From Afipia sp. (lineage in GTDB: Bacteria > Pseudomonadota > Alphaproteobacteria > Rhizobiales > Xanthobacteraceae), in the NCBI GenBank assembly GCA_017308495.1, contig JAFKES010000138.1:1-50009 (forward strand): a DNA stretch of 50,009 bases, read 5' to 3'. Below the pieces are notes generated by a model. The model saw only the letters and a list, made by a program, of their open reading frames with translations. It did no database searches and was not told where the DNA came from. Positions 25,007 through 45,262 of this stretch are shown piece after piece. The position numbers and the translations under genes are program-made. Position 1 is the first letter of the stretch; each line of letters opens with the position of its first letter.

Positions 25007-25891
25007 TTACACCGCAACGGGCGCCCAAATGGTCGGATGGGGATCGTAGCCGCCGAGTTTGAAATCATCGAATACGAAAGCGAAGATGTTCTGCACATTC
25101 GGGTTCAGCCGCATCGTCGGCAGCCTGCGCGGCGCACGGGATAGCTGGAGCCGTACCTGCTCGGCGTGATTGGCGTAGATGTGCGCGTCGCCCAGGGTAT
25201 GAATGAATTCGCCAGGCTGAAGATCGACCACCTGAGCGATCATGAGAGTGAGCAGCGAGTAGCAGGCGATGTTGAAGGGCACCCCCAGAAACATGTCCCC
25301 GCTGCGCTGGTACAACTGACAGGACAGGCGGCCGTTCGCAACGTAGAACTGGAAGAGCGCGTGGCAGGGTGGCAGCGCCATGTCGGCGACTTCCGCCGGA
25401 TTCCATGCGACCACCATGTGGCGGCGCGAATGGGGTGTGCTCCGCAGCGTCTCGATGACGCGAGCCAGCTGATCAATCTCCTGCCCGTCGGGGGCTGTCC
25501 AGCGGCGCCATTGTTTGCCATAGATCGGGCCGAGGTCGCCGTCGGGGCCTGCCCATTCATCCCAGATCGAGACGCCGTGCTGCTGCAGCCAGCGCGTATT
25601 GGTGTCGCCGCGCAGAAACCACAGCAGTTCGTAGATGATCGATTTGACATGCAGTCGCTTGGTGGTGAACAGGGGGAAGCACGTATCCAGAGGAAAGCGC
25701 ATCTGCAGGCCGAACGTGGAAAGCGTGCCGACGCCGGTTCGGTCCTCCTTGTGTTCGCCATGCTCGAGGATATGCTGGAGATGATCTAAATACTGGCGCT
25801 CTGACGCGACATCGTGGTCCGAAAGCACGTCGTCAGAAGGCGCACAGTGGGATGCGTTCGAATGAGCAGGGGAGGGGGATCGGGTCGGCAT
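25007..25891 (-). CDS. thyA: Thymidylate synthase ThyA
   Basis: 294 residues, about 30 longer than usual at the N-terminus. It methylates dUMP with 5,10-methylene-tetrahydrofolate and releases dihydrofolate. The catalytic Cys is in [12 protein letters not shown], the folate and phosphate motifs [16 protein letters not shown] and DAHIYANH are intact, and it ends with the canonical APVAV tail. Its ATG overlaps the start of the divergent LysR gene by two bases. An in-frame GTG at 25828 would give a normal-length protein and leave room for a promoter. It is the left edge of the folate/BMC cluster. Confidence 0.93.
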
Positions 25892-26846
25892 GGCAATGCA
25901 TTCAATGGATTTGAGGAGATTGAAGAACGTCGTCGCGTTGGCGAAGTACGGGAGCTTTGCACAGGCCGCCGAAGCCGTTCACCTGAGCCAGCCTGCGTTC
26001 AGCCGCAGCATTCAGTCGCTCGAGGAAGATCTCGGCGTCGATCTCTTTAATCGTGGGCAACGCAAGATCACGTTGACCGCTTATGGCAAGCTTGTCGTGA
26101 GCCGCGGCGAGCGGATGCTGGCCGAGGTGGCGAGCCTCAAGCGCGATGTCGGGCGCATGCGCGCCCACGAATTCGGTGAGGTCGCGATCGGGCTCGGTCC
26201 GATTCCGGTTGCGGTGTTGTTCGAAACGATCCTGTCGCGCATTACGCGCGAGCATCCGGGGATTCGCACGCGCGTGGAAATCACGCATTGGCAGAACCTG
26301 CTCAAGCTGCTGGAGGCCGACGAGCTGGACTTCTTCATCGGCGATACGCGGGAATTGGTCTCGGGCGATCGGCTGGTGATCGACACCCTGCCCGAGTTTC
26401 GCATCGGGATGTATGCCCGCAGGAATCACCCCGCGCTCTCTATTCAGCCGATCAGCCCGAGCGACCTGCTGAGATTTTCGCTCGGCTCGTTCAAGCTGCC
26501 GGACATCAGCCTGGCCGAATTTACGCAGTGGCTGGAGTTCGAAGGTGATCCGAAGGCCCTGTTCACCGTGCAATGCGATGACTTGCGCGCGCTCGAGCGC
26601 GTTGCGATCCGCAGCGACCTGATCGTGGTCGGTCCTCAACTGAGTTTCCGTGAAGCGACCGAAAATCAGCTTCTTGTGGAAATTGAGCTGACCACTCCCC
26701 TGAGCATGACCACGCATATGGGCGTGGTGCGTCTGCGCGACAGGATGCTTGCGCCCGGCGCCGAATTGCTGATCGGCATGGCCTTCGAGGCATTGACGGA
26801 CGGCCCGGGAGAATTTCCTCCGCTTCCCGCCGTGAGGCCCGCCTAG
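25890..26846 (+). CDS. LysR-family transcriptional regulator
   Basis: 318 residues. An N-terminal winged helix-turn-helix ([19 protein letters not shown], then [12 protein letters not shown]) precedes a periplasmic-binding-like effector domain. It is the only transcription factor in the BMC cluster, so it is the likely reader of the twin dyads at 29.3 kb and 39.2 kb, one of which is a textbook T-N11-A box. The inducer is probably a small acid or keto acid, as usual in the family, but unknown. The ATG at 25890 has GGAGGGGG upstream; the ATG at 25905 begins the more canonical MDLRRLK. Confidence 0.9.
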
Positions 26847-26859
26847 CTCCGGGCTCGAG

Positions 26860-28320
26860 TCATCCGACTTTCGGATCTTTCCCCTTGAAGTGGTTCGCCC
26901 AGGAAGACGTCCCTCGCGTTCCTTCGACGGGGGGAACGATCGTGCGTTCCAGCTCATCGAGCCGGCCCAGGCTTTTGGCCAACCGATACTTCCTGTTGTG
27001 GATGCATTCGCGATCCTTGAACTCACAGGTGTTTTCGTCCGTGCCGGCGCATGGTCCATTGGCAAGTCCCTTCGGACAGGTTTCAGGACAGTTGTAGAAG
27101 AGATATTCGATGCGGCAGAAGCCGCAGGTTTCGCATCCCAGAGCCGCGTGCTTCGTGGTCTTTTCAAGCTGCAGCAGCGCGGATCGCCCGATGGCGGTCT
27201 TGTCGAGGGCGCGGACGGCGAGGCTCATCACCGACGCTCCGAGCGTTCCCTCCTCGAACGCCACATCATGCAGCGTCTTCATGCGCGCGTACTTGGCCAG
27301 CTCCGCTTCCGACGGCTTGACGTCGCCGAATGCGGGGAGGTGATTCAGGCTTCCGGGCGCGGGCTTCGTGTCGAACAGGTAGAGGCCGCGCGGGGGCGCA
27401 AAATCGACCGTGCGTCCGTCGGGCAGCCGGTGAGCCTCGTTCCAGGCCTCTTTCCAGGCCTCCAGCGAAGGCAGCTCGCGCGCAAGGTTGTCCGCCATCT
27501 CGATCGCCGTGCAGAGATCTTCGTATCGGTCCACGCCGCTCATGTGTACGCCGGCATAGCCAAGATGCTGCGCGCCGACGATCTGCAGCGCCAGCCGGTT
27601 CCAGGCCCAGCGTTTGGCTTCGGCTTTGCCTTGCGCGTGCTCTTCGCAAATCTTGTTAAAGAGATCGTCCGACATGAACACGCCGGGCAACCGCCGCGAA
27701 TGAATGCCCCTGGCCCAGCCCATCGTGGGCATGAGCAGGTTCGCGACCAGCGGCGTCTGAAAGCCGCGTGCGTCGCGATACCATGCGAGTTCTTCCAGCT
27801 TCCGCATATCCCAGCCGCAATTGGTGATCAGGTAATCGACCCCGATGCTCACCTTCTTGGCCATCTTGAGATATTGGTTCGCCAGCTCTTCCTCGCGGTA
27901 TTTGAAAGGTGAGATGGCGCCGGCCACCAGGGAGGCCGGCGCCATCTGCTTGGCATCGCGAATCGCGTTGACCGATTCCTGATAGCGGAATCGTTCAGCT
28001 CGCTTTTCCGTGATGCCATCGCCGGTCAGGAGAAGCATGTTCTCCAGTCCTTGAGACAGCGCGCGGGCGATGACGGCGCGTGCCTGATCGGGGGTGCGGT
28101 TCTTGCCGGCCAGATGCAGCAGCGGGACCTTGCCGCTTGCATCCGCGGCGATGCGGCCGCATGTCACGGTATCGAGCGAGTCGAGCGACTTGACGCGATC
28201 GCCGATGTTGATGCCGCCGATGCGCGGATCTCGTCCGACCAGTTCGGAATTGCGTTTCAGTTCGGTCACGCCGGCCGGCCCGGATTCGATCAGATCCGGG
28301 ACATATTCCAGCGTGTACAA
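26860..28320 (-). CDS. Fused MetF-like reductase barrel with MetV-type C-terminal domain
   Basis: 486 residues. The N-terminal 300 or so form a methylenetetrahydrofolate-reductase-type barrel (LYTLEYVPD, LLHLAGKNRT, NMLLLTGD, YLITNCGWD). The last 90 carry eight cysteines at about 396, 399, 402, 411, 415, 424, 432 and 439, in CETCGFC, NCPETCPKGLANGPCAG and CEFKDREC, the MetV-like domain found with MetF in acetogens and C1 pathways. It probably interconverts methylene- and methyl-tetrahydrofolate. The TTG at 28320 is the only usual start, yet RESLRAGTF-like residues upstream look coding, so the true start is unclear. It follows the PanB-fold gene by 60 bp. Confidence 0.82.
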   Translation of the reverse strand: MYTLEYVPDLIESGPAGVTELKRNSELVGRDPRIGGINIGDRVKSLDSLDTVTCGRIAADASGKVPLLHLAGKNRTPDQARAVIARALSQGLENMLLLTGDGITEKRAERFRYQESVNAIRDAKQMAPASLVAGAISPFKYREEELANQYLKMAKKVSIGVDYLITNCGWDMRKLEELAWYRDARGFQTPLVANLLMPTMGWARGIHSRRLPGVFMSDDLFNKICEEHAQGKAEAKRWAWNRLALQIVGAQHLGYAGVHMSGVDRYEDLCTAIEMADNLARELPSLEAWKEAWNEAHRLPDGRTVDFAPPRGLYLFDTKPAPGSLNHLPAFGDVKPSEAELAKYARMKTLHDVAFEEGTLGASVMSLAVRALDKTAIGRSALLQLEKTTKHAALGCETCGFCRIEYLFYNCPETCPKGLANGPCAGTDENTCEFKDRECIHNRKYRLAKSLGRLDELERTIVPPVEGTRGTSSWANHFKGKDPKVG

Positions 28321-28380: not shown

Positions 28381-29259
28381 TTAGACGGTCGTTTTCTCGA
28401 CAATCTTGAGGAACTTGTCGTGTTCCTGCGGCGTCATGTGCTGTACGAATTCCTCGTACGGATACTTCTTCGACAGAACCTCGTCCTTGTACTGGCGCAA
28501 GCCCTGCTGAATCAGCGGCCGCACGTCGACGAAAGTGCCTTCGTGCTTGGGACGGGGGAAGGCACTATAGCCCACCGCGTCGCCGCTGATGAGATAGACG
28601 CCGTCGGGCGAGGCGCCGCCGCCCACGCTGATGACCGGGATCGGGAGCGTCTCGGCGAGATACTGCGTGATTTCCACCGGCACGTATTCGATGATCAATG
28701 CGAACGCTCCGGCGTCGACGAACGCGCGGGTGTCGTCGACGATCTTGGCGGCCTCGGCGGCGGTGCGCCCCTTGAAGCCGTAGCCGCTCTGCTCCAGCTT
28801 GCGCGAAGCCTGCATGCCCATGTGGCCCATGACGGGGATGCCGGCGCGCACGATCTCGGCCACGGTCTTGGCCGTATGCCGGTTGCCTTCGCACTTCACG
28901 GCATCGGCACCGCCTTCGGCGATCAGGCGCGCGGCGTTGCGGATCGCGTCCTCGGTGGAGAAGTGATACGTCATATAGGGCATGTGCCCGACGACCATGC
29001 CGTATTGCGTGACGCGGCTCACGGCCTGCGTCAGCACGAGTTGCTCTTCGAACCGAACGGTCATCGGCGTTTTGTGTCCGAGCAGCGACATCGGACCGGC
29101 ATTGCCGTTGATCAGCATATCAAAGCCGATCTCGTCCGAGATGGCCGCCATCGGCGCATCGTATACGCCAAGGGCGACGATGCGTTCCTTGTTGGCCTTC
29201 TTGTCCAGAATATTCTTGACGGTGATCTTGCTGCGCTTGCGTGCGGGCGTGTTGCTCAT
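28381..29259 (-). CDS. KPHMT-like (PanB-fold) protein, copy 1
   Basis: 292 residues, similar to ketopantoate hydroxymethyltransferase. Against E. coli PanB, the Mg ligands Asp45 and Asp84 are replaced by Gly52 (LINGNAG) and His92 (VGHMPYM). Lys112 and Glu114 are kept as Lys122/Glu124 (AVKCEGN), and the catalytic base Glu181 is kept in IIEYVP. A different metal site or reaction is likely, so panB is not assigned. The ATG has GGAG upstream. It is transcribed away from the BMC operon from the shared control region. About 278 bp of it is almost identical to copy 2. Confidence 0.85.
   Translation of the reverse strand: MSNTPARKRSKITVKNILDKKANKERIVALGVYDAPMAAISDEIGFDMLINGNAGPMSLLGHKTPMTVRFEEQLVLTQAVSRVTQYGMVVGHMPYMTYHFSTEDAIRNAARLIAEGGADAVKCEGNRHTAKTVAEIVRAGIPVMGHMGMQASRKLEQSGYGFKGRTAAEAAKIVDDTRAFVDAGAFALIIEYVPVEITQYLAETLPIPVISVGGGASPDGVYLISGDAVGYSAFPRPKHEGTFVDVRPLIQQGLRQYKDEVLSKKYPYEEFVQHMTPQEHDKFLKIVEKTTV
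28709..28986 (-). repeat. 278-bp inverted near-identical tract, left arm
   Basis: This segment of PanB-fold copy 1 matches 34844-35121 of copy 2 in inverted orientation, with four differences by my count. The adjacent 60 bp differ at 14 positions. The arms are 5.86 kb apart and bracket the shell operon. Confidence 0.85.
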
Positions 29260-29317
29260 AAAGGAAACTCCGGTGGATTATACCGAAGTGAGTAGCAGCA
29301 GTTCGTTCGCCTCTCCA

Positions 29318-29405
29318 ATGCATTGTATTGCGAGATGCAATGCACGGCGCGCAATTTGTGAAGCTTGCGTCGGACGCAACGAATTCGACCTATAAATGCA
29401 TTGGG
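29318..29405. promoter_or_regulatory. BMC divergent control region with two dyads
   Basis: The first element (29318-29344) is an imperfect dyad reading ATGCATTGT, then CGA, then TGCA, then GCA. The second (29365-29379) is the perfect palindrome TTGCGTCGGACGCAA, containing a LysR-type T-N11-A box. A TATAAA hexamer follows at 29391-29396, overlapping another ATGCATTG. The same elements with the same spacing recur before the ABC importer at 39198-39285. It sits between copy 1 (-) and copy 3 (+) of the PanB-fold genes, so both operons are probably controlled here. Confidence 0.75.
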
Positions 29406-29474
29406 CGGCATCGTTTCGCGCTGCTAACGTTTGCGTCATTCGAATTCCGCTCAGCAGCGCATAAACGCAAACCA

Positions 29475-30362
29475 GTGGTCGACAAGTTGTCAAATAGTCG
29501 CCGGAAAATCACGCCCGCATCAATCATTTCCCGAAAAGGGCGCGGCGCTCCCATTACTCTCGTGACGGCTTACGATTATCCGTTTGCAAGTTACGCCGAG
29601 CAGGCCGGAGTCGACATCGTATTCGTGAGCGATGCATTCGCGAGCGTTGGCATGGGGTGCGACAACACCCTGGCGGTCACCGTGGACGAGGTCATCTATC
29701 ATACGCGTGCGGTGCGTCGTGCGGTGTCGTCGAGCCTGGTGCTGGCGTCGCTGCCGTTCCTGTCATACACGACGCCCGCTGATGCGGTGCAAAACGCCGG
29801 TCGCATCATTCGTGATGGCGGCGCGGATGCCGTCGAGATCGAGGGTGGCGCCGAGCTTGCGCCGACCGTGCGGGCTCTGACGAAAGCCGGTATCGCGGTT
29901 ATCGCGCATGTGGGGCTGACGAAAATACTGTCGGCGCGCACCGGAAGCTATCGTTCGCAGGCGCAGGACGCGCAGTCGGCAATCGCCATCATGCACGATG
30001 CGCTCGCGCTGTCGGAGGCCGGGGCCTTCGCGCTCGTGCTCGAATGCATTCCCGACCGCATCGCCGCGGCGATTACGGAGCTTGTCCCGGTGCCGACCAT
30101 CGGCATTGGCGCGGGCGGTTACTGCGATGGGCAGGGTCTCGTCACCCAGGACATGCTGGGGCTGTTCGAGAAGTTCACCCCGAAATTTGTGCAGAAGTTT
30201 GCCGCGCTCGGCGAGGGCGCGCGCGACGGCTTTCGACAGTTCAAGGCGAGCGTCGAGTCGGCTGCATTTCCAGGTTCCGCGCACACGCTGGCGATTGAGG
30301 ACGAGAAGCTCGACGACATCGTGGCGCGGCTCAACAGTGCCAGCAACGGTACTCCCTACTGA
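29475..30362 (+). CDS. KPHMT-like (PanB-fold) protein, copy 3, first gene of the BMC operon
   Basis: 295 residues from a GTG. It is nearer to true PanB than the other copies (VTAYDYPFA, TLAVTVDEVIYHTRAVRR, LPFLSYTTP). Asp45 is kept (Asp53), but the second metal ligand Asp84 is Ser92 (LASLPFL) and Lys112 is Glu121 (VEIEGG); Glu114 and Glu181 remain. A C-terminal extension with EDEKLDDIVARLN may be an amphipathic helix. Upstream in-frame starts are rejected because they lie inside or before the dyads and the TATAAA hexamer. A TTG at 29487 is also possible. It precedes BMC-H by 58 bp. Confidence 0.83.
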   Translation: MVDKLSNSRRKITPASIISRKGRGAPITLVTAYDYPFASYAEQAGVDIVFVSDAFASVGMGCDNTLAVTVDEVIYHTRAVRRAVSSSLVLASLPFLSYTTPADAVQNAGRIIRDGGADAVEIEGGAELAPTVRALTKAGIAVIAHVGLTKILSARTGSYRSQAQDAQSAIAIMHDALALSEAGAFALVLECIPDRIAAAITELVPVPTIGIGAGGYCDGQGLVTQDMLGLFEKFTPKFVQKFAALGEGARDGFRQFKASVESAAFPGSAHTLAIEDEKLDDIVARLNSASNGTPY

Positions 30363-30420: not shown

Positions 30421-30723
<303 letters not shown>

Positions 30724-30755: not shown

Positions 30756-31388
30756 ATGTCCAAGGAAAATAACGTGCAGCTGCGCGCATACTTTTTCATC
30801 GACCGCATGCAGCCGCAATACGCAGCCTATTTCGGTACGGTGACCGCCGGCGACATTCCGGTGGCGGGTATGGCGCAGATGTACGTGGAGCTCGCTCCGG
30901 GCAACGAGGTGTTTCGCGTCGTTGACATGGCCGTGAAGGCGACGGAGGTGAAGCCCGGCGTGCAGATCGTCGAGCGCGAGTTCGGTGTGCTCGAAGTGCA
31001 TTCCGAGTCGCAGGAGGCAGTCCGCGAGGCGGGACGCACCATCCTGGAGCGTCTGGGCATGCGGGAAGAGGACCGGATCCGGCCAAAGGTCGCCTCGGTC
31101 CAGGTGATCACCAATGTGTCGCCCTATCAGGCGCAGCTGATCAACCGGTCGCGTCGCGGCAGCATGCTCGTTCCCGGAGAGGCGCTGTTCGTGCTCGAGG
31201 TCACGCCGGCCGCGTATATCGATATCGCGGCCAACGAGGCCGAGAAGTCCGCGAATGTCCGCCTTGTCGATCTGCGCGACGTCGGACGGTTCGGCCGCCT
31301 GTTCATGGCAGGCACCGAAGCGGAAGCGCGCACCGCGCAACTCGCCTCGATTGCGGCCATCGAAGCCATCTCTGGCACCGACAAGTAA
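30756..31388 (+). CDS. BMC-T tandem-domain shell protein
   Basis: 210 residues, two fused BMC domains that make a pseudohexameric trimer. The first half begins LRAYFFIDRMQPQ, with APGNEVFRVVDMAVKATEV, VQIVEREFGVLEVHS and a helix REAGRTILERL. The second half has VITNVSPYQAQLINR, SMLVPGEALFVLEVTPAAY and FMAGTEAEA. The opening LRxYxFIDRxQPQ recalls permuted BMC-T proteins of aminoacetone-type loci. BMC-T trimers often carry large gated pores. A GTGAGGAG ribosome-binding site precedes the ATG. Confidence 0.93.
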   Translation: MSKENNVQLRAYFFIDRMQPQYAAYFGTVTAGDIPVAGMAQMYVELAPGNEVFRVVDMAVKATEVKPGVQIVEREFGVLEVHSESQEAVREAGRTILERLGMREEDRIRPKVASVQVITNVSPYQAQLINRSRRGSMLVPGEALFVLEVTPAAYIDIAANEAEKSANVRLVDLRDVGRFGRLFMAGTEAEARTAQLASIAAIEAISGTDK

Positions 31389-31404: not shown

Positions 31405-31710
31405 ATGCTGATCTGCAGAACGACCGGAACCGTCGTATCGACTGTCAAGCACGAGCGGCTGCACGGTCGCAAGCTGCTGCTCGTGAGGCGTTCCGCCCCC
31501 GATGGCAAGGCTGTCGGTGATCCGTTCGTCGCGGTGGATGCCGTCGGCGCCGGAGAAGGAGAACTCGTGATCGTTGCCGTTGGCAGTGCCGCGCGCGAAC
31601 TCGATACGACCCGGTCGGCGCCGGTGGACGCCACCATCATCGGTATCATCGATTCCACGGCTGTCGGCGGCAAGCTCCGCTTCGCGAAGTCGAATGAGGC
31701 GAACGCATGA
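31405..31710 (+). CDS. BMC-P pentameric vertex protein (EutN/CcmL family)
   Basis: 101 residues from an ATG at 31405 with AGGAGCGG upstream. The fold is EutN/CcmL-like: MLICRTTGTVVSTVKHERLHG, KLLLVR, the VAVDAVGAGEGELVIVAVGSA block and DATIIGIID. Pentamers of this protein cap shell vertices. Its stop overlaps the ATG of the aldehyde dehydrogenase by four bases. With BMC-H and BMC-T it completes the minimal set for a closed icosahedral shell. Confidence 0.95.
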   Translation: MLICRTTGTVVSTVKHERLHGRKLLLVRRSAPDGKAVGDPFVAVDAVGAGEGELVIVAVGSAARELDTTRSAPVDATIIGIIDSTAVGGKLRFAKSNEANA

Positions 31711-33176
31711 CCAGTGATCTCGACAAGGATCTGAAGGCCATCCAGCAGGCCAGGCGTCTGGCCGAACGGTGCCGCGAGGCGCAGCGGGAGTTCGCGAAGG
31801 CGTCGTCCGCCACCGTCAACGCGGTGTGCGAAGCGGTGTCCGAGGCGTCGTTCAAGGCTGCGCGCCGCCTCGCGGACATGGCCCACGAGGAAACCGGCTA
31901 CGGAAATGCCGATCACAAGGTGCTGAAGAACGAGTTCGCCGCGCGCAATGTTTGGGAATCGATCCGCGACGTTCCGACCGTCGGCGTGATCGAGCGCGAC
32001 GAGTCCAAGAAAATGCTGGTCATCGCCGAGCCGATGGGCGTGGTGGCGGCGCTGACGCCGTCGACCAACCCGACGTCGACGGCGATCTTCAAGTCGCTGA
32101 TTGCGCTCAAGGGCCGCAATGGCATCGTGCTGTCGCCGCATCCGTCGGCGGCGAAATGCACAGCCGAGGCCGTGGACATCATCGCCCGGGCCGCGGAGGG
32201 CGCCGGCGCGCCGCGCGGCCTGGTCAGTTGCCTCGACGGATCATCGTATTCCGGGACGCAGGAGTTGCTGCGCCACTATGCCGTCAACGTGATCCTCGCC
32301 ACCGGCGGCGGGCCGATGGTTCGCGCCGCCCATAGCACGGGCAAGCCGGCGTATGGCGTCGGCCCCGGAAACGTTCCTGCCTGGGTTGACCGCAGCGCCG
32401 ATATCGCGAAGGCGGCGCGTGACCTCGTCAACAGCAAGTCGTTCGATTGCAGCCTGATCTGCGCCACCGAACAAGCTGTGGTGGCCGACGAGCCGATCGC
32501 GGCGGAACTGCGCAGCCGGATGGAAGAGCAGGGCGCGTATTGGGTGCCCGAGGCTTATCACCAGAAGCTGGCGGCGACGCTGTTTCATCCGGATGGCGGC
32601 ATCAACGCCCGCTCTGTCGGCCAGACCGCGGCGGCACTGGCGGGCGCTGTCGGCATGGAGATTCCGGCCGGTACGTGCGTGCTCGTGGCGCCGCTCGGAG
32701 GGATCGGCAAGGATCACCCGCTCTCGCGCGAGAAGCTGACTTCGGTGCTGGGGTTCATGACGGCGCGGGATGCGCAGGCCGGACTGGACCTGTGCGTCAA
32801 GATTCTCCGCTTCGGCGGCGACGGACATTCCGCGGTGATCCACTCGCGGGATGCGACGCAAACGGAGGCCATGGCGGCGCAGCTTCCCGCGTTCCGCATC
32901 ATCGTCAATTCGATGTCGACGCTGGGCAGCATCGGCTCCACCTGCCGCTTCGTCCCCTCGCTGACGCTGGGGACCGGAGGCATGGGCGGCGCCATCGTGG
33001 GGGACAACATTACGGTCACGCACCTGATCAATCGCAAGCGCGTCGCGTGGGAAGTCGAATCCCCGCCCGCGAGCGTCGGCCGGCCCGGAGCCGCGGCGAT
33101 CAAGCGAGAGCCCAGCGTTGACGAGATCGTCGCGCAGGTGCTGGCGCGGCTCGGGCGTATGCCGGTCCAGGCTTAA
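31707..33176 (+). CDS. CoA-acylating aldehyde dehydrogenase, BMC cargo
   Basis: 489 residues, EutE/PduP-like family: [37 protein letters not shown], catalytic Cys252 in [11 protein letters not shown] and [13 protein letters not shown]. It turns an aldehyde into acyl-CoA with NAD and CoA. After a Pro/Gly/Ala-rich linker, the last residues (about 470-485, [15 protein letters not shown]) form an amphipathic helix of the encapsulation-peptide type, so it is probably packaged in the shell. Cys248 next to the active site is an extra cysteine. The aldehyde is unknown; sulfoacetaldehyde-type acylating enzymes are close relatives in this fold. Confidence 0.93.
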
Positions 33177-35449: not shown

Positions 35450-35521
35450 TCGTTGGCGGCGGCTTTTCTGCCGCGACAATTTTGAGTGTCGAGAGCGTTG
35501 TCCGTCGAAGGTGATGAAGCT

Positions 35522-37786
35522 GTGACATCCGAGAGCACGCGCGGGAAAATTGGGCGGACGGTGGCTGAATCGACGCCATGGTGGCCGCAACCTCTGAAGG
35601 GGCCACCGGGCTCGCCCAACATTCTGCTCGTTCTGTTCGACGATGTCGGCTTCTCCGATTTCGGCTGCTACGGTTCGCCGATCCGGACCCACGCCATCGA
35701 TCGCCTTGCCGCAGAAGGCATTCGCTATTCGGGATTTCACACCACCGCGATGTGTTCGACCACGCGCGCTGCATTGCTCACCGGTCGAAATCATCACTCT
35801 GTGGGGATGGGATGTCTGGCGAATTTTGACAGCGGCTATCCGGGCTATCGCGGCAAAATTGCACGCGAGGCCGGCACGCTGGCGGAAATGCTTCGCGAGA
35901 ACGGTTACCGCAATTACTTTTGCGGCAAGTGGCATGTGACGCCGATGAGCGAGGGGGGATCGACCGGCCCGTTCGACGGCTGGCCCCTCGGGCGCGGATT
36001 CGACAGGTTCTACGGTTTCATGAATGCCGAAACCGACCACTACACGCCGGAACTGGTGCAGGATAACTCGCACGTCGATCCGCCCGGCACTTTCGAAACG
36101 GGCTATCACCTGACGGCGGATCTGGTCGATCACGCGATTCAATTCATCGCCGATCACTCGGCGCAGAAGCCCGACCTGCCGTGGTTTACGTGGGTGGCTT
36201 TCGGCGCATGCCATGCCCCTCATCAGGCGCCCCGGAGCCTGATCGACAGCTACGAGGATGTTTTCGCGACGGGCTGGGATATCGAACGCGCGGTGCGTCT
36301 GGCGACCCAGAAAGACCTCGGGCTGGTGCCGCCGGACACGCGGATGCCTTCTCGCAACACCGGCGTTCAGCCGTGGGACGCGCACACGGAGGAGGAGCGG
36401 CGTCTCTTTGTCCGGTTGCAGTGCGCTTATGCGGCGATGCTGGATCACGCGGATCAGCAGATCGCGCGGCTTGTCGATTTCCTCGAACGCACCGGCGCGC
36501 GCGACAACACCATCATTCTCGTCCTCTCGGACAATGGCGCCAGCCAGGAGGGCGGACCGCTCGGCGCGGTGAATACGCTCGGCAGCTACAACTATCAGGA
36601 AGAATCCCTGCAGGTTAAAATCGAGCGCTTCGAGACCATCGGCGGCCCGGGAAGCCATGCCAATATCCCGCACGGCTGGGCGATGGCGTCGAATACGCCG
36701 CTCAAACGCTACAAGCAGAACACGCATGGCGGCGGTATTCGCGACCCCCTCGTGATCTCATGGCCGAAGGGCATTCACGCGCGGGGCGAGATCCGCCATC
36801 AGTTTGCGCATGCCTGCGACCTGTTGCCGACGCTGCTGGAAGCGGTGGGCGTGCAGGCGCCCGAGCAGGTGAACGGCCTTGCCCAGATGCCGATCGAGGG
36901 GGTGAGCTTCGCCCAAACCTTCAACGCCTCCTCGGCGCCCAGCAAGGCGTCCGCGCAATATTTCGAGATGTTCGGACATCGCGGCATCTGGCACGAAGGC
37001 TGGAAGGCCGTGGCCTATCACGCTCCGGGGACGCCTTTCGATCAGGATCAGTGGGAGCTTTACAATCTCGATCGCGATTTTTCCGAAACGCAGGACCTCG
37101 CCGGGGTCGAGCCGAGACGCCTTGAGGCGCTGAAGCGGCTGTGGTGGCGGGAGGCGGAGAAGCACAAGGTGCTGCCGCTGGATGATCGGTTCGGTCCGCG
37201 GTTCGCCGAAAATGCCGCGCGGATCCTGGGCGACAGGCGTCAGTTCGTATTTCACAAAGGCGTCGGTCATGTGCCGACCGATCTGGCGCCGGACGTGCGG
37301 AGCCGGAGCTACACCATCGAAGCCAGCGTGGAACTGTCCGGCAACGACAACGGCGTTCTCATCGCCCACGGCGACGGCACCACCGGATATGTGCTGTATG
37401 TCCGCGACGGCTACCTGGTGCACGATCTCAATCTCGGCGGCTCGCACGAAACCCTTGTTTCCAACGGGCCGATTCCGCGTTCGGCGCGAACACTCGGTCT
37501 GCGCGTGGATCGGCTCAAGCGAGGAGCGGGCGGTGAGGCCCTGAAGAGTCGCTACACGTTGCTGATTGAGGGACAGCCCGCGGGCTCCCTCGACACCGAG
37601 AGGTACTTCAAGTCGCTGATCTCCTGGGCCGGTTGCGATATCGGATGCGACCGCGGCACGCCGGTCGGCGATTATATCTCGCCCTTTGAATTCACCGGCG
37701 AGCTTGCAAAGGTTGTCGTGACGCTGGACGACGACCAGCAACTGGACGGCGACTCGGTCGGGCGCGCGGAGCTGGGCCGGGAATGA
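35522..37786 (+). CDS. Sulfatase (alkaline-phosphatase superfamily)
   Basis: 754 residues. The metal-site motifs LVLFDDVGFSDFG and LVLSDNGASQEGG, GKWH and the formylglycine motif CSTTRAALLTG (Cys78) identify a type I sulfatase. The third motif position is Thr rather than the usual Pro/Ala. A C-terminal beta-rich region of about 180 residues (GHVPTDLAPDV to the end) is an added domain. No signal peptide is visible, so it may be cytoplasmic. GTG 35522 is chosen for the GAAGG upstream; GTG 35486 is possible. It follows PanB-fold copy 2 by about 70 bp. The sulfate ester is unknown. Confidence 0.88.
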   Translation: MTSESTRGKIGRTVAESTPWWPQPLKGPPGSPNILLVLFDDVGFSDFGCYGSPIRTHAIDRLAAEGIRYSGFHTTAMCSTTRAALLTGRNHHSVGMGCLANFDSGYPGYRGKIAREAGTLAEMLRENGYRNYFCGKWHVTPMSEGGSTGPFDGWPLGRGFDRFYGFMNAETDHYTPELVQDNSHVDPPGTFETGYHLTADLVDHAIQFIADHSAQKPDLPWFTWVAFGACHAPHQAPRSLIDSYEDVFATGWDIERAVRLATQKDLGLVPPDTRMPSRNTGVQPWDAHTEEERRLFVRLQCAYAAMLDHADQQIARLVDFLERTGARDNTIILVLSDNGASQEGGPLGAVNTLGSYNYQEESLQVKIERFETIGGPGSHANIPHGWAMASNTPLKRYKQNTHGGGIRDPLVISWPKGIHARGEIRHQFAHACDLLPTLLEAVGVQAPEQVNGLAQMPIEGVSFAQTFNASSAPSKASAQYFEMFGHRGIWHEGWKAVAYHAPGTPFDQDQWELYNLDRDFSETQDLAGVEPRRLEALKRLWWREAEKHKVLPLDDRFGPRFAENAARILGDRRQFVFHKGVGHVPTDLAPDVRSRSYTIEASVELSGNDNGVLIAHGDGTTGYVLYVRDGYLVHDLNLGGSHETLVSNGPIPRSARTLGLRVDRLKRGAGGEALKSRYTLLIEGQPAGSLDTERYFKSLISWAGCDIGCDRGTPVGDYISPFEFTGELAKVVVTLDDDQQLDGDSVGRAELGRE

Positions 37787-38069: not shown

Positions 38070-38429
38070 ATGTCCGTGACTCGCCCAGCTTGGCAACAGG
38101 AAGGCCGCGAACCCGATTATCGGTTCAGTTTGGCGAATGAGCGCACGTTTCTCGCGTGGATTCGGACAGCTCTGGCGGTTGTCGGCGGCGGGGTGCTGTA
38201 TCGGCAGTTCGCGGCGGGAACCGGACCCCGTTCGCTGCATTTCTTCATCGCGATCAGCATAACGATTTTAGGGGGCGTGATGGCGGTCGCCGCCTATCGG
38301 CGGTGGAAGTCTCATGAAATTGCAATGCGGCATGACCGGCCGCTTATGGCGGGGTGGGACCTCGTTGCCCTGAGCGCCATGATCTCGAGCATCGCCATCG
38401 GGCTGGGCGTTCTGCTGTTGCCGATGTGA
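38070..38429 (+). CDS. DUF202 membrane protein (YidH-like)
   Basis: 119 residues. FSLANERTFLAWIRTALAVV is the DUF202 signature, with three membrane segments (about residues 34-50, 55-75 and 95-115). Function is unknown. E. coli has a similar DUF202 pair, yidG and yidH, in the neighbourhood of the sulfatase gene yidJ, so the link to a sulfatase here is probably not chance. Confidence 0.85.
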   Translation: MSVTRPAWQQEGREPDYRFSLANERTFLAWIRTALAVVGGGVLYRQFAAGTGPRSLHFFIAISITILGGVMAVAAYRRWKSHEIAMRHDRPLMAGWDLVALSAMISSIAIGLGVLLLPM

Positions 38430-38790: not shown

Positions 38791-39197
38791 GGCTCATTGA
38801 CGAGCCGACGTAGATCCAGCTTGGCTCCATACTGCGGTGTGGTCGCTGGAGCAGCGCCATTTTCGGGCGAACGTCTGGTGGCGCCGGACTCGACTGTCCT
38901 CTCGATTGTGGTTGCGCAGGATGCAACGCGTACGTTGGCCATCCATACCCCTCCCGAGCGGCGGGCGGGAAATCGGGGCTCCGCAGCGCCGGAGAATGGG
39001 CCTTTGCGTGATCCGGACACCGTGATGATCGCCCGGAACTCCGGCTGCGGATATCATCGGTTCTTTCCTCTCTCCGCCCTGGTGAGAGCGGCGCGTCGTT
39101 CTGCCGCGATCGTCACGTCAGTCGGTTGATCCGTCAGGCATCGTCCAGCGTGTGTTGAAGCGAATGCGCTTCCCGCTGCGTGAATTTGTGCTTTGCG
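38791..39197. other. Gene-free stretch before the ABC importer promoter
   Basis: About 400 bp. I see no ORF with a ribosome-binding site or recognisable protein. A weak GGCTC/GAGCC hairpin follows the DUF202 gene. The DNA becomes noticeably richer in A+T from about 39180, where the control region begins. Confidence 0.5.
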
Positions 39198-39285
39198 ATG
39201 CATTGTCAAACGATGTGCATCGCATATTAAAGCCGATCGCTCGATTGCGCGGCATGCAACGATTCCGGCTTAAATATGCAATTGT
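39198..39285 (+). promoter_or_regulatory. ABC importer control region, twin of the BMC one
   Basis: The first element (39198-39224) reads ATGCATTGT, then CGA, TGCA and GCA in the same register as 29318-29344 (19 of 27 bases identical by my count). The second (39245-39259) is TTGC-N7-GCAA, a LysR-type box, 47 bp after the start of the first in both regions. An ATGCAATTG element follows 78 bp from the start, again matching. The binding-protein gene starts 74 bp downstream. Confidence 0.75.
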
Positions 39286-39358
39286 GGGTGCTGGTCGCTG
39301 CGGGTACTGTCAAAGAAAAACAGGATTTGATGCGATCAAAGATCGTGAGGGAGGGTAC

Positions 39359-40393
39359 ATGAAATTCCAGAAATTCTTCGGGGCCGCGTTGGGTCTCTTG
39401 CTGTCCGGCAGCGTTGCGACAGCTCAGAATGCATCTTCAAAAGAGCTCATTCCGATCAATATCGGTGGCCCGAGCGCCGGCTACTTTATGACTTACGTCG
39501 CCACCGACCTCGGTCTTTATCAGAAACACGGTCTCGATCCGAAGATCCATTGGTTCACGAGCGGCGCGCCGCTGCTCGCAGCCCTCAAGAGCGGCAGCAT
39601 CGATCAGATCGTCACCGGCCTCGCCTTTGTGTTCGCGCTCGGTCAGGACATTCCTCTGAAGATCATTTCCTGGGAGCTCGACAACGCCCAGGGCGCTGGT
39701 CTGATGGCGACCGAGGCCAGCGGCATAACCAGCTACAAGGACATCGGCAAGGCGAAGAAAATCGCGGCGACGGCCGGGACGTGTTCGCAGGTGTCGCTGA
39801 AGCTGATGGCCAAGAAGGCCAACATCAATTACGACAAGTTGAACGTGGTGAACATTGCGCCGCCACTTTTCGCCAATGCATTCACGGGAGGCGCGATCGA
39901 TGCCGCCGTGGGCTGGGCGCCTTGGACGATGAACCTCCCGGCGGGCGCCAAGCTTGTGTCCATGGATTCCGATTATGGTGGCGTCTGTCCGAGCATCAAC
40001 GGTTTGCGGCCGGATTTCATCGCGAAGTATCCCAGCGTACCGGAGAAGCTGCTCGCGGTTCAGGCCGAGGCGCGCGAGTTGATCGCCAAGAATCCTCAAC
40101 TGGCCATCGATGCGTTGCAGCGGCAGTTGCAGATTTCTCCGGCGGTCGCGAAGCAGTTCTACGAGAAGCACTGCTGTGGCGGCTTGCCCACGTTCGAGCA
40201 GCAACTGGATCCGAAGTCGCAATGGTCGCTCGTGAATCCGAACGGCGGACTGGCTGCCCAGGCGGTGCTCGCAAGCCAGATGCTGTTTGAACTCGGCACG
40301 ATTCCGGCGCCGCTTAAGCCGGAGACGATAACGGCGGCGATCGATCCGGCGCCCATGCGCAAGTTCCTCAGCGCGCATCCAGCCAGCCGGTGA
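39359..40393 (+). CDS. ABC importer substrate-binding protein (NitT/TauT type)
   Basis: 344 residues from ATG 39359 with GAGGGAGGG upstream. A signal peptide (FFGAALGLLLSGSVATAQ) is followed by an NMT1/SsuA-like periplasmic fold: YVATDLGLYQKHGLDPKIHW, LLAALKSGSIDQIVTGLAF and AFTGGAIDAAVGWAPW. Families of this type bind nitrate, taurine, alkylsulfonates, pyrimidine precursors or aromatic acids. An upstream in-frame start would run through the operators and is rejected. The shared control elements link it to the BMC. Confidence 0.9.
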   Translation: MKFQKFFGAALGLLLSGSVATAQNASSKELIPINIGGPSAGYFMTYVATDLGLYQKHGLDPKIHWFTSGAPLLAALKSGSIDQIVTGLAFVFALGQDIPLKIISWELDNAQGAGLMATEASGITSYKDIGKAKKIAATAGTCSQVSLKLMAKKANINYDKLNVVNIAPPLFANAFTGGAIDAAVGWAPWTMNLPAGAKLVSMDSDYGGVCPSINGLRPDFIAKYPSVPEKLLAVQAEARELIAKNPQLAIDALQRQLQISPAVAKQFYEKHCCGGLPTFEQQLDPKSQWSLVNPNGGLAAQAVLASQMLFELGTIPAPLKPETITAAIDPAPMRKFLSAHPASR

Positions 40394-40406
40394 TAGTCGA
40401 GGCCTG

Positions 40407-41186
40407 ATGATGAATCAGATGAGCAGTATTCCCCGTTACTGGATATCCACGGGGGCGGTCGTTTCGGTCTTCGCAGTGTGGTTTGCGGTCACCAATACCG
40501 GACTGGTTGGCCCAAGCTACCTGCCGTCGCCGCAAGCGTTGTTCCTGTCGTTTGTCAATCTGATTGAAAACGGGTATCAGCGCACGCCGCTCTGGGAGCA
40601 TATCGGCATCAGCCTGTTCCGCGCATTGAGCGGGTTCACGCTGGGAGTCGCCGTCGGGATTCCGATGGGATTGGTGACGGGCTACAACCGTTCGGCGGAT
40701 GCCGCCATGTCACCGATCATGGCGTTCATCCGTCCGATCCCGCCGATCGCGTTCATTCCCATGGTGGTGTTGTATTTCGGGCTTGGCGAGGTGGGTAAGG
40801 TCGTCCTGATTTTCATCACGGCGTTCAACTATGCTCATGTCAACGCCCACGCCGGCGCGGCGCATGTCCCCATCGCCTACATCCGCGCTTCGCAGACGCT
40901 CGGTCTGACGCGAGGACAGATCTTTCGCAAGATCGTGTTCCCTGCGGCATGGCCTCACATCTTCACGGGACTGAAAGTCGCAATGGCGCTGAGCTGGGCG
41001 GTCGTGGTCGCGGCGGAGCTGGTCGGCGCGCAGAAAGGCCTCGGCTTCATGATCTCCGACGCGGCGCAGGTTTTCCAGATACCGGTTGTCTTCATCGGCA
41101 TCGCGCTGATCGGCTCCATCGGGCTCGCGCTCAACATGCTCGTCAGTCTCGCCGAGCTGAAGATCGTCCATTGGAAGGGCCGGTGA
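40407..41186 (+). CDS. ABC importer permease (NitT/TauT type)
   Basis: 259 residues with six predicted membrane segments and the EAA-type coupling loop RASQTLGLTRGQIFRKIVFP. It belongs to the SsuC/TauC family. It starts 13 bp after the binding-protein gene and is followed by the ATPase gene. Confidence 0.92.
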   Translation: MMNQMSSIPRYWISTGAVVSVFAVWFAVTNTGLVGPSYLPSPQALFLSFVNLIENGYQRTPLWEHIGISLFRALSGFTLGVAVGIPMGLVTGYNRSADAAMSPIMAFIRPIPPIAFIPMVVLYFGLGEVGKVVLIFITAFNYAHVNAHAGAAHVPIAYIRASQTLGLTRGQIFRKIVFPAAWPHIFTGLKVAMALSWAVVVAAELVGAQKGLGFMISDAAQVFQIPVVFIGIALIGSIGLALNMLVSLAELKIVHWKGR

Positions 41187-41209
41187 GCTCTCAGTTGTTA
41201 GAGAATGCC

Positions 41210-42049
41210 ATGACCATACATCACAAACCTGCACTGCATCTGATGACCTCACAAACCCAACCGACTTACAACGCGGCTGAAGACAAGGTGGTCTTCGAGG
41301 ACGTTTCGAAGACCTACCCGCAGTCCGGAGCTGCGGCCGGATCGACGGTCGCCATCAAGTCGCTGAACATCGCGATCAAGACGGCTGAAATCGTCAGCAT
41401 TCTCGGCCCCACCGGCTGCGGAAAATCGACGGCGATGAACATGATCGCCGGATTCGAATTTCCCACCCAGGGACGGGTCCTGCTCGATGGCAAGCCCATT
41501 CTTGCGCCGGGCCCGGATCGTGCCGTCGTGTTCCAGCAGGCTTCGCTGTTTCCGTGGCTCTCGGTCTTCGAAAACGTGGTCCTGGGCGTCAAGAGCCGCG
41601 GAATTAGCCCGGACGTCTATGCCGGACGGGCGGAGCAGCTGCTGAAAGCCGTCAAGCTCAGTGGTTTTGAAAAGCACTATCCGTACCAGCTTTCGGGCGG
41701 CATGCAGCAGCGCGTGCAGATTGCCCGGGCGCTGATCTCGGAGCCCGAAGTGCTGTTGATGGACGAGCCGTTCGGCGCCCTCGACTCGCAGACGCGCCTG
41801 ATGATGCAGGAACTGGTGCTACAGCTTTGGACCGAATTTCGCCCGACGATTATTTTTATCACCCATGACGTGGCCGAAGCGGTCTTCGTGTCGGATCGCA
41901 TCCTCCTGATGTCGAGCCGGCCAGGCAGGGTCAAGCTCGATGTCTCGGTCGATGAGCCCAAGCCGCGCAGTCAGGATTTCCTTGTCAGTTCCAGCTTCGT
42001 CGATCTTCAGGCCAGCCTGCTTTCGGCGCTGAAGGAGGAGGTTCACTAG
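41210..42049 (+). CDS. ABC importer ATPase (NitT/TauT type)
   Basis: 279 residues from ATG 41210. Walker [11 protein letters not shown]-loop [11 protein letters not shown], signature [15 protein letters not shown], Walker [13 protein letters not shown] and switch [11 protein letters not shown] are complete. A longer in-frame start would overlap the permease gene and is rejected. It completes the three-gene importer. About 140 bp without a gene follow. Confidence 0.93.
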
Positions 42050-42192
42050 CGCGCTGTCTGCGTTTGTCTGCGCGGCCCTGGGGTGGAGTTCCGGTGCCGC
42101 GCCGATGATGGTCGGCAGCAGCGTGATGACGTCCCTTGCATAAGGCCCTGCTTGAGTGCATTCGTTCTGGGAATCACCGAGGGGCCGGGAGA

Positions 42193-43011: not shown

Positions 43012-43198
43012 CAGAACGGGCACTCTTTCGCATCGCGTGGTTGCTTGGCTCTCCACGAGAGATGTCCGGGAATGTATACATGCCCGGGAATGCCGAATGT
43101 TGTGACGTCGGGTACGCGGTTGAACGGGTTGGCGCGATATCGTTCTGTGCCGGAGGCGTGAGCCACCAGACCTGCTGGTGCGATTGAGGAAGCCGCGC

Positions 43199-45262
43199 GT
43201 GACGACTCTGCTCATCGACAACTATGACTCGTTTACGTACAACCTGTTTCAGGATTTGACCAAGCTGACAGGAAGTCCTCCGATCGTCATCAGGAATGAC
43301 GAGATCGGGTGGGATGAACTTTGCGAACTCGAATTCGACAGCATCGTCATTTCGCCGGGGCCCGGGCGACCTGAAAACCCGCAGGATTTCGGCATTTGCC
43401 GGCGCGCGATCCTTGAAGCCACCGTTCCGATTCTCGGCGTCTGCCTGGGACATCAGGGCATCGCGCATGCCTTCGGCGGACGCATCGTATCGGCAGAGCC
43501 GATGCACGGCCGCGAAAGCAAAGTGTATCACGATGCCGGTGGGCTGTTCCGCGATATTCCCACGCCCTTTTCGGCCGTGCGCTATCACTCGCTCATTGTC
43601 GATGGCGATTTGCCGAGTTGCTTGATCGCCAATGCCTGGACGCAGGACGGCGTGTTGATGGCTCTTCAGCACCGCACCAGGCCGATCTGGGGCGTCCAGT
43701 TTCATCCGGAATCGATCTGCTCCGAACACGGTGCCACTCTGCTGCGCAATTTTCTCGATCTGGCAAAGTCGGCGCGCTCCCTTGAGCGGGACATGCCGCG
43801 CAAGACGACCTCTCTTCGGGCGCCCGAAGCAGCGCCCCGCCCGCTGGCCTATCGCCGCCTGCCGCGTCTGATCGATCCCGAGGCCGTGTTCCACGAGTTA
43901 TACGCTGCCGAGACGCATGCCTTCTGGCTCGACTCGGCGCTCGTCAGCGAAGGGTTTTCGCGGTTCTCGTTCATGGGGGATGCATCGGGACCGCAGGGGG
44001 CGGTGCTGTCCTATCGCAGTTCGTCGCGCCGCCTCGACATCACGGACCGCTCCGGAACGCGCAGCCTGAACGAGAGCATCTTCGATTTCATCAAGGCGCG
44101 AACGGGGCCACGGTTCAGATCGGATGCGGACCTTCCGTTCGATTTTCGCGGCGGGTACGTCGGCTATTTCGGTTACGAACTGAAACAGGAATGCGGCGGC
44201 GATGCCGCGCACGAATCGCCGTTCCCCGATGCGGTTTTGCTTTCGGCCGGGCGCTTCATCGCGTTCGATCATCTCAAGCATGAAACCTATCTCGTGAGCA
44301 CCGATGAGGACGGCGAGGAGGGGGATGCATGGCTGCGCGAAACCGAGGCGCGGCTCGAACGCCTTACGCCATTGCCGGAACCGTTGTCCGGGCCGTTGCC
44401 GAATCCGCTGCCTGAACTGGCCGGTGATGCCGGGGGCTTCACGCTCCGCCACAATCGATCGGCCTACATCGACCGCATCCAGCTTGCGATGAACGAGATC
44501 AGAGCGGGCGAAAGCTATGAAGTCTGCCTCACCAACACGTTGACGTTGGATGCGGGCCTCGACGCGTTCAGGCTCTATCGCATCCTGCGCCGTATCAATC
44601 AGGCGCCTCACGCCGCATTTCTCAAGCTGGGCGATCTGACGGTGGTCAGTTCTTCGCCCGAGCGGTTCTTGCGGGTCGATCGCAGCGGTCGCGTGCAGGC
44701 CAAGCCGATCAAGGGCACAGTGCGGCGCGCCGTCGATCCGGCGGAAGACGCGGCGCTGGCGGCATGGCTTCGCGCGGACGAGAAAAGCCGGGCGGAAAAT
44801 CTGATGATCGTCGATCTGCTGCGCAACGATATCGGCCGTGTCTGCGAGGCCGGGAGTGTCCGCGTCCCGCGGCTGATGGAGATCGAGAGCTATGCAACCG
44901 TTCACCAGCTGGTGAGCACGGTCGAGGGACAACTGCCGGACCAGGTGCATGTGATCGATTGCATCAAGTCCTGCTTTCCCGGTGGCTCGATGGTCGGCGC
45001 GCCGAAGATCAGAACCATGCAGATCATTGATCGGCTGGAGGGGGAGGCGCGCGGCATCTATTCCGGTGCGATCGGATATATCGGTGTGGACGGAGCGACC
45101 GATCTCAGCATCGTCATCCGGACCATCGTCGCGACGGACGACCGCCTCTCGATCGGCGTCGGCGGCGCCATCGTCGCGTTGTCTGACCCTGACGAAGAGT
45201 TCGAGGAAACCATGCTGAAGGCAAGGTCGCTTCTGCACGCCATCGCGCTCGCGTCGGAATAG
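43199..45262 (+). CDS. pabAB: Fused aminodeoxychorismate synthase PabA-PabB
   Basis: 687 residues from a GTG with GAGGAA upstream. The amidotransferase part (residues 1-190) has VCLGHQG with the catalytic Cys82 and the FHPES histidine/glutamate. The synthase part (from about 220) ends in a chorismate-binding domain. The motif PIKGT at about residue 503 has the lysine typical of PabB, where anthranilate synthases have alanine. It makes aminodeoxychorismate from chorismate and glutamine, the p-aminobenzoate branch of folate synthesis. Confidence 0.93.
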   Translation: MTTLLIDNYDSFTYNLFQDLTKLTGSPPIVIRNDEIGWDELCELEFDSIVISPGPGRPENPQDFGICRRAILEATVPILGVCLGHQGIAHAFGGRIVSAEPMHGRESKVYHDAGGLFRDIPTPFSAVRYHSLIVDGDLPSCLIANAWTQDGVLMALQHRTRPIWGVQFHPESICSEHGATLLRNFLDLAKSARSLERDMPRKTTSLRAPEAAPRPLAYRRLPRLIDPEAVFHELYAAETHAFWLDSALVSEGFSRFSFMGDASGPQGAVLSYRSSSRRLDITDRSGTRSLNESIFDFIKARTGPRFRSDADLPFDFRGGYVGYFGYELKQECGGDAAHESPFPDAVLLSAGRFIAFDHLKHETYLVSTDEDGEEGDAWLRETEARLERLTPLPEPLSGPLPNPLPELAGDAGGFTLRHNRSAYIDRIQLAMNEIRAGESYEVCLTNTLTLDAGLDAFRLYRILRRINQAPHAAFLKLGDLTVVSSSPERFLRVDRSGRVQAKPIKGTVRRAVDPAEDAALAAWLRADEKSRAENLMIVDLLRNDIGRVCEAGSVRVPRLMEIESYATVHQLVSTVEGQLPDQVHVIDCIKSCFPGGSMVGAPKIRTMQIIDRLEGEARGIYSGAIGYIGVDGATDLSIVIRTIVATDDRLSIGVGGAIVALSDPDEEFEETMLKARSLLHAIALASE

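Follow-up and report, generated by a model that had tools for sequence, protein, structure and literature searches.

Here, we describe a bacterial microcompartment (BMC) locus in a 50,009-nucleotide stretch of an Afipia sp. genome (GenBank assembly GCA_017308495.1, contig JAFKES010000138.1; hereafter the window), in which shell genes stand among genes for PanB-fold proteins, folate metabolism and organosulfur transport. We give about an even chance to the reading that it encodes a metabolosome for one-carbon (C1) units at the formaldehyde level, which would be taken from a small organosulfur compound and their carbon passed to tetrahydrofolate (THF). On the + strand, a run from ∼29.5 to 37.8 kb comprises PanB1, the shell proteins BMC-H, BMC-T and BMC-P, an aldehyde dehydrogenase, a pair of EutQ-N-like proteins, FolB, PanB2 and a sulfatase. 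PanB3 and a MetF/DUF5981 fusion diverge from this run, with a LysR gene (+ strand) and a ThyA gene divergent from it lying beyond; a sulfonate-type ATP-binding cassette (ABC) transporter, PabC and PabAB are found at 39-45 kb, downstream of the shell run. Gene families were assigned by Pfam/NCBIfam profile matches. These confirmed the gene set named in an earlier, sequence-only reading of the window (BMC-H, BMC-T and BMC-P, the dehydrogenase, three PanB-fold genes, FolB, the MetF fusion, ThyA, PabC-type and PabAB). The central features are the following.

26860 to 28320, - strand: MetF-like protein (methylenetetrahydrofolate reductase, MTHFR) fused to Cys-rich DUF5981 (PF02219 30 bits, PF12225 67 bits)
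28381 to 29259, - strand: PanB3, divergent PanB-fold protein of the N45/H84 type (PF02548 241 bits; aligned sites and trees)
29260 to 29474, no strand: divergent promoter with TGCATTG/CAATGCA dyads (four overlapping half-sites, three when merged, against 0.03 expected)
29475 to 30362, + strand: PanB1, PanB-fold protein of the D45/S84/E112 type with a C-terminal helix resembling an encapsulation peptide (PF02548 308 bits; GTG start inferred)
30421 to 30723, + strand: BMC-H shell protein (PF00936 105 bits)
30756 to 31388, + strand: BMC-T shell protein, CcmP-like (NF053796 260 bits, under the cut-off of 340)
31405 to 31710, + strand: BMC-P vertex protein (PF03319 100 bits)
31707 to 33176, + strand: EutE-type, coenzyme A (CoA)-acylating aldehyde dehydrogenase with a C-terminal encapsulation-type peptide (TIGR02518 507 bits, cut-off 620; PDB 5j78, E 4e-134)
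33191 to 33616, + strand: EutQ-N-like small protein 1 with a C-terminal amphipathic helix (weak EutQ match, E 0.08)
33620 to 34015, + strand: EutQ-N-like small protein 2 (weak EutQ match, E 0.001)
34017 to 34505, + strand: FolB (dihydroneopterin aldolase family), a second copy (PF02152 95 bits; the other FolB is on contig C194)
34550 to 35449, + strand: PanB2, divergent PanB-fold protein of the N45/H84 type (PF02548 234 bits; aligned sites)

The start of PanB1 is probably near 29475 (GTG), because the longer open reading frame (ORF) crosses the promoter and its dyads.

The PanB2/3 proteins of the window and of two same-genus genomes were aligned, and the alignment was scanned against 84,980 species genomes. 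The scan relied on two short peptide seeds typical of the PanB2/3 subfamily only and is thus silent on remoter PanB proteins. It returned seven PanB2/3 loci, two of them in the seed genomes themselves, and all seven lie beside the same shell set. The genomes belong to alpha-, beta- and gammaproteobacteria: Bradyrhizobiaceae AGun1, an Afipia metagenome-assembled genome (MAG), Bradyrhizobium LY.8, a Burkholderiaceae MAG, Castellaniella S9, a Legionellaceae MAG and Lacisediminimonas. The sequence-only reading had tied the compartment to PanB-fold and folate genes and had agreed beforehand to fall if this linkage proved not to be conserved; the linkage is there at 7/7 loci. Chance adjacency of the gene set was rejected, since the set recurs in seven further genomes of three classes.

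Together with the window these make eight genomes (L057/G016 and L060/G023 are the same genomes, each counted once). Common to all eight loci are PanB1, the three shell proteins, the dehydrogenase, both EutQ-like proteins, at least one PanB2/3 protein and the MetF fusion; two PanB2/3 genes are present in six of them. In every case PanB1 immediately precedes BMC-H, in the same orientation. The divergent promoter also carries the TGCATTG/CAATGCA motif in 8/8 loci: in promoter regions picked after the motif had been seen in the window, 24 overlapping half-sites (18 merged) were counted, where mononucleotide shuffles gave an expectation of 0.23; outside these regions, 182,502 bases of the loci contained 19 such half-sites.

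The distribution of the locus is patchy, since a BMC-P gene was detected in just 2 of 28 other same-genus genomes. A BMC-T relative was present in 29 of 397 genomes of the order, window included, and none was found in a scan of viral contigs. PanB and FolB gave no tblastn match at 13 other BMC loci of the order (stretches of 6-20 kb, some ending at contig ends), nor was the MetF fusion matched at E<=1e-30 among 296 other genomes of the order. A BMC type distinct from that of the window was seen in L010-L012, where a pair of BMC-T genes (36-47% identical to that of the window) and a dehydrogenase (about 40%) have an ABC ATPase gene nearby. At the AGun1 locus (CP078014, L057 3390-3690), the MetF/DUF5981 gene retains ∼100 residues and is followed by unrelated sequence, and this locus has neither ThyA nor LysR.

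The PanB-fold proteins of the locus differ from canonical PanB at the metal site. We take the aligned positions to be D45, S46, D84, K112, E114, H136 and E181 of E. coli PanB, with Asp45 and Asp84 as metal ligands. At these seven positions canonical PanB reads DSDKEHE (5/5 proteins), PanB1 reads DA[STA]EEHE (8/8), keeping D45 and changing D84 to S, T or A, and PanB2/3 read NAHKEHE (14/14), with N and H in place of Asp45 and Asp84. E114, H136 and E181 are invariant across all 31 proteins compared. Given these invariant residues and the fixed changes at the metal ligands, the substitutions look like altered chemistry rather than decay, and they argue against plain ketopantoate chemistry: neither PanB1 nor PanB2/3 has both Asp45 and Asp84, which we take as the mark of a ketopantoate hydroxymethyltransferase (22/22 proteins differ). 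In a phylogenetic tree, PanB2/3 grouped with PanB-like proteins from methanesulfonate gene clusters (see below), and PanB1 with canonical PanB (support 100/99). The split was kept in a second tree, to which two satellite PanB-like proteins of the Afipia MAG were added and from which the Lacisediminimonas pieces (L110, L111) were left out. The structure model of PanB3 was weak (predicted local distance difference test, pLDDT, 64).

These data bear directly on the view that the PanB genes act as additional genes for pantothenate and so provide the compartment with CoA, with the folate genes serving ordinary PanB. PanB does use methylene-THF, a PanE-family gene is found downstream in the window and also in G016, and PanB1 scores above both NCBIfam PanB cut-offs (PanB2 and PanB3 are below both). 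On the other hand, the metal-site positions are non-canonical in all 22 locus proteins, a separate canonical-scoring PanB is kept in seven of the eight genomes, that of the window included, and no PanC was present among the scanned ORFs of the window (the other loci were not checked). We therefore rejected this explanation on the metal sites and the separate PanB, and consider it highly improbable.

To place the PanB-like proteins in a wider context, 297 genomes of the order were searched with PanB3 at E<=1e-45, a limit of our own choice. Besides the window, four genomes were recovered, with PanB-like genes 36-41% identical to PanB3. All four genes are located near a methanesulfonate-type (MsmA-type) Rieske oxygenase (L094-L097), and the MsmA proteins of the other three genomes are 78-85% identical to that of G054, the source of the query. 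These clusters also contain SsuA-like transport, sulfite dehydrogenase, TauE, GcvT-like and formate-THF ligase genes in varying combinations. A GcvT-like THF protein adjoins the PanB-like gene in two of the four clusters. The PanB proteins here read DTDKEHE (4/4), with both Asp ligands kept. The G256 stretch corresponds in gene order and spacing to the methanesulfonate segment of Filomicrobium, with MsmA lying to within one base of where it should be. Table 1 of the report on that segment lists LysR, TauE, GcvT, '3-methyl-2-oxobutanoate hydroxymethyltransferase', SoxC and SoxD, and gives 'C1-moiety transfer' as the annotated function of the PanB-like gene (PMC4433239). The locus and the methanesulfonate cluster (msmABCD/msmEFGH; PMC4433239) have in common a PanB-like protein from one side of the tree, ABC transport of the SsuA type, TauE, LysR and folate C1 genes. 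In contrast with our loci, the methanesulfonate clusters have their own MsmA and a PanB with both Asp ligands, and no shell gene was matched in these stretches. Fae was found in none of the eight BMC genomes. One of the four comparison genomes, G072, also carries, on a separate contig, a BMC that is not of the window type.

Satellite PanB-like genes off the compartment locus were identified in two BMC genomes, and they are nearer to PanB2/3 of the window than the methanesulfonate type is. In the Afipia MAG (L109 1-8340, G023 contig 213), two such genes (41-45%) stand with TauE and an Ssu-type transporter, in a stretch with no shell gene match; their site patterns differ again (NSTQHHE and PSHKDHE). 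In Lacisediminimonas (L110 1-3994 and L111 1-4547), PanB-like pieces (55-71%), perhaps one gene split over two contigs, occur at two contig starts. One is divergent from PurU-FolD, a route from methylene-THF to formate, and from a weakly scoring FolB; the other is followed by an Ssu-type transporter. A search of 72,556 plasmids with PanB3 returned 644 records, all below 60% identity. Among four plasmid places examined, three were panB-panC pairs and one (Sphingomonas) had no panC within 500 bases.

Organosulfur genes accompany every locus, and both they and the methanesulfonate context of the PanB relatives had been overlooked in the sequence-only reading, as had the changed metal-site residues. 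Those of the window, with the membrane protein gene between them, are as follows.

35486 to 37786, + strand: sulfatase, its Cys-type motif judged by eye (PF00884 211 bits)
38070 to 38429: DUF202 membrane protein between sulfatase and transporter (96% identical in L057)
39152 to 40393, + strand: SsuA-like binding protein, conserved (TIGR01728 111 bits, cut-off 163.5)
40407 to 41186, + strand: SsuC-like permease, conserved (PF00528)
41210 to 42049, + strand: SsuB-like ATPase with an approximate start, conserved (PF00005 113 bits in ORF 40949-42049)

Genes for an SsuABC-type transporter occur at 8/8 loci (at least two of three subunits visible), with subunits 56-95% identical to those of the window, partial matches at contig edges included. 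A sulfatase was found at five loci, TauE at four (L058, L060's contig, L061 and L062) and a SulP-type permease at two (L061 and, below the NCBIfam cut-off, L060's contig). The Lacisediminimonas contig also carries a separate Ssu-rich cluster with a sulfatase of 44% identity.

Folate genes and the remaining neighbours in the window are listed here.

25007 to 25891, - strand: second ThyA, thymidylate synthase (PF00303 403 bits; the other ThyA of the genome is on contig C85)
25890 to 26846, + strand: LysR-type regulator (PF00126/PF03466), at seven of the eight loci, not at L057
42136 to 43011, + strand: PabC-type aminotransferase-fold lyase (PF01063 178 bits; L057 has one too)
43178 to 45262, + strand: PabAB fusion (TIGR00553 352 bits, cut-off 328)
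46282 to 49521, - strand: genes for a PanE-family protein, a short-chain dehydrogenase/reductase (SDR) and a periplasmic binding protein, in the same order in AGun1 (L082) and 91-96% identical

The folate genes vary from locus to locus. A ThyA copy is present at six loci (window, L058, L059, L060, L061 and L063), and all six genomes have another ThyA; the AGun1 locus has none, and that of the Legionellaceae MAG is cut short by the end of its contig. Pab-like genes lie close to four loci (the window and L057, and L061 and L062 by 24-39% BLAST similarity only), FolC near two (L058's contig and L062), FolE near one (Castellaniella), and PurU is at one (L058). Such variety suggests a shared folate need rather than inherited neighbours. 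The MetF part of the fusion scores over the PF02219 cut-off and far below the cut-offs of the NCBIfam MTHFR models; its predicted fold matches MTHFR (Foldseek E 1.1e-11, in a weak model of pLDDT 61).

FolB follows the EutQ-like pair at seven of the eight loci and scores slightly under the TIGR00525 cut-off (67.4 against 72.15 bits). The sequence-only reading had put it forward as a possible aldehyde source, that is, a signature enzyme releasing glycolaldehyde, which the dehydrogenase would convert to glycolyl-CoA. Its conserved position agrees with this, as do the residues E, Y, E and K in the window FolB, which we take to be the catalytic ones. However, the Castellaniella locus lacks FolB (the one FolB of that genome is elsewhere), other folate-making genes alternate near the loci, and only a very small flux through pterins is to be expected. 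The idea was rejected because of this absence and interchange, and we find it barely credible. Since FolB is missing at Castellaniella and Pab-like, FolC and FolE genes take turns near the loci, it seems to be concerned with supply of the carrier.

As for the shell, BMC-H, BMC-T and BMC-P at 8/8 loci, together with an acylating aldehyde dehydrogenase bearing an encapsulation-type peptide (a sequence prediction of packaging), place the locus in the metabolosome class. A single PF00936 match and a single PF03319 match were obtained in a profile search of the whole window genome, both within the window, so its shell set is the only detectable one; each of the eight genomes has a single BMC-H match over the cut-off. 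BMC-T gave just 22 bits with PF00936, below the cut-off, and is 83-99.5% identical to its counterparts in the seven other loci. The packaging-type C-terminal helix of the dehydrogenase is visible by eye in 8/8 proteins. PanB1 ends in a short amphipathic helix resembling the dehydrogenase tail (EKLDDIVARLNS and alike), and the EutQ-like proteins likewise end in helix-like stretches; they show weak similarity to EutQ yet are present at every locus. It should be noted that helical moments by themselves do not establish packaging of the dehydrogenase, PanB1 or the EutQ-like proteins. The claim that no classical signature enzyme is encoded stands for the scanned ORFs of the window, among which no diol dehydratase, ethanolamine lyase, glycyl radical enzyme or sugar aldolase, the enzymes that mark the PDU, EUT, GRM, SPU and PVM types, was detected, the rest of the genome not having been searched. 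Neither alcohol dehydrogenase nor phosphotransacylase was found in the ORFs scanned between 20.5 and 49.5 kb, again with the rest of the genome not searched; an SDR with unassigned substrate is located at 47.4 kb. Taken as a whole, the sequence-only reading is partly supported.

Which aldehyde the dehydrogenase receives allows two further explanations. First, the PanB-fold proteins could be the signature enzyme for an aldehyde of two or more carbons (C2+): retro-aldol transfer of a hydroxymethyl group from a beta-hydroxy aldehyde such as 3-hydroxypropanal to THF would leave, for example, acetaldehyde, to be converted to acetyl-CoA. The closest relatives of the dehydrogenase are acetaldehyde dehydrogenases, the changed metal ligands may suit a substrate without an alpha-keto acid, PanB1 has its peptide-like tail, and folate genes and dehydrogenase would be accounted for alike. 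Taken alone, this scheme gives no account of the transporter of the sulfonate type, of TauE or of the methanesulfonate-type clusters in which PanB relatives lie, and we regard it as unlikely. Second, the aldehyde, for example an organosulfur-derived C2 compound, could be made by an enzyme encoded elsewhere, the PanB and folate genes processing a by-product C1 unit outside the shell. Other BMC types place core enzymes at satellite positions (PMC8217296), and the SauS-type sulfoacetaldehyde dehydrogenase is a relative of the locus enzyme (306 bits). Such an arrangement fits poorly with a PanB1 that carries an encapsulation-like tail and is invariably placed directly upstream of BMC-H, and appears to us quite unlikely.

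Returning to the formaldehyde-level reading, we infer its reaction and direction, the transport roles, the substrate and the enzymes inside the shell along the following lines. The hydroxymethyl group that PanB exchanges between a carbon nucleophile and THF is found on a sulfur nucleophile in hydroxymethanesulfonate, which is probably what methanesulfonate oxidation yields first. The SsuABC-type transporter would import a small organosulfur compound, and in some lineages a sulfatase would strip off sulfate. The PanB-fold proteins would then act as hydroxymethyl transferases to THF, in the reverse of the biosynthetic direction of PanB, moving the hydroxymethyl group from a sulfur (or carbon) nucleophile to give methylene-THF. 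Where a locus has TauE or SulP, these would export sulfite or sulfate. Carbon on the folate could be consumed or oxidised by FolD/PurU, ThyA and the MetF/DUF5981 fusion, with the carrier replenished by FolB, FolE, FolC and the Pab proteins. Free aldehyde would be retained by the shell and converted to acyl-CoA by the packaged dehydrogenase (formyl-CoA if the aldehyde is formaldehyde). Genomes that have the transporter and genes for PanB-type proteins and folate C1 steps, some of them also exporters of sulfite/sulfate, but lack the oxygenase could use hydroxymethanesulfonate, our leading guess for the substrate, or a close relative directly. In its most specific form, this would be the first formaldehyde-level C1 microcompartment, in which PanB-fold enzymes, having evolved from a transferase of the ketopantoate type into a hydroxymethyl-sulfur:THF transferase, convert, for example, hydroxymethanesulfonate to sulfite and methylene-THF, formaldehyde is confined by the shell, and the packaged dehydrogenase forms formyl-CoA; we put this forward tentatively and think it rather doubtful. 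Methanesulfonate oxidation has been described to yield formaldehyde and sulfite (PMC4433239). Slow reduction of formyl-CoA, giving formaldehyde, has been reported for EutE-clade dehydrogenases: of 46 homologues tested, 9 were above control (PMC8511477). Judged by the titles of some matches, nothing was found in the literature on bacterial breakdown of hydroxymethanesulfonate.

Several observations weigh against this reading. An enzyme activity is known for none of the locus proteins. The top-scoring model of the dehydrogenase is acetaldehyde dehydrogenase, below its cut-off, a match that favours formaldehyde no more than a C2 aldehyde. Several other BMC types also have ABC ATPases nearby with 29-37% identity to SsuB, so the SsuB-like ATPase alone is weak evidence, and sulfatase, TauE and SulP are each missing at several loci. 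A close MsmA was found in none of the eight BMC genomes (the best matches, ∼35%, are generic Rieske oxygenases); thus, methanesulfonate itself is not established as the substrate. A single reaction does not account for two kinds of PanB that differ in their metal sites, and finer placement in the trees is unsure because long branches were flagged in both. ThyA is hard to place in the proposed pathway, and some of the Pab, FolC, FolE and PurU genes near the loci may be the only copies in their genomes. Finally, the AGun1 locus may be decaying, as its truncated MetF fusion and missing ThyA and LysR suggest, or may reflect a rearrangement or assembly join.

Among known systems, the metabolosomes of unknown function (MUF) and those with an incomplete core (MIC) resemble the locus in having a shell and an acylating aldehyde dehydrogenase without an obvious signature enzyme (Axen 2014, Sutter 2021), and in having no alcohol dehydrogenase or phosphotransacylase (here, among the scanned window ORFs). 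Compared with these types via the main texts only, the locus is distinguished by its conserved PanB-fold, MetF/DUF5981 and folate genes. Searches of the main texts of both catalogues (Axen 2014, Sutter 2021) matched none of the terms used for its enzymes; an unexplained listing in Supplementary Data 2 of the latter is possible. Judged from titles and abstract starts, no literature linked PanB or FolB to microcompartments, or a microcompartment locus to methanesulfonate or to formaldehyde together with THF; none was found on Castellaniella sp. S9. In the chloromethane-type THF route, MetF, FolD and PurU take folate-bound carbon to formate. The locus would share this use of MetF/FolD/PurU, whereas it has PanB-fold proteins and no corrinoid methyltransferase among the scanned ORFs.

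To our knowledge, all functionally assigned metabolosomes handle aldehydes of C2 or longer and none is built on folate, and we know of no other such compartment that strips C1 units from sulfur compounds onto folate. If true, our reading would add a one-carbon and organosulfur branch to microcompartments and a new type of reaction to the PanB fold. The PanB-like gene found near the methanesulfonate monooxygenase in Filomicrobium and other organisms, which are of importance in the sulfur cycle, would also be given a possible role. The vague class of metabolosomes without a signature enzyme would thereby gain a testable case, for which Castellaniella sp. S9, seemingly an isolate, offers a locus without its own FolB or sulfatase.

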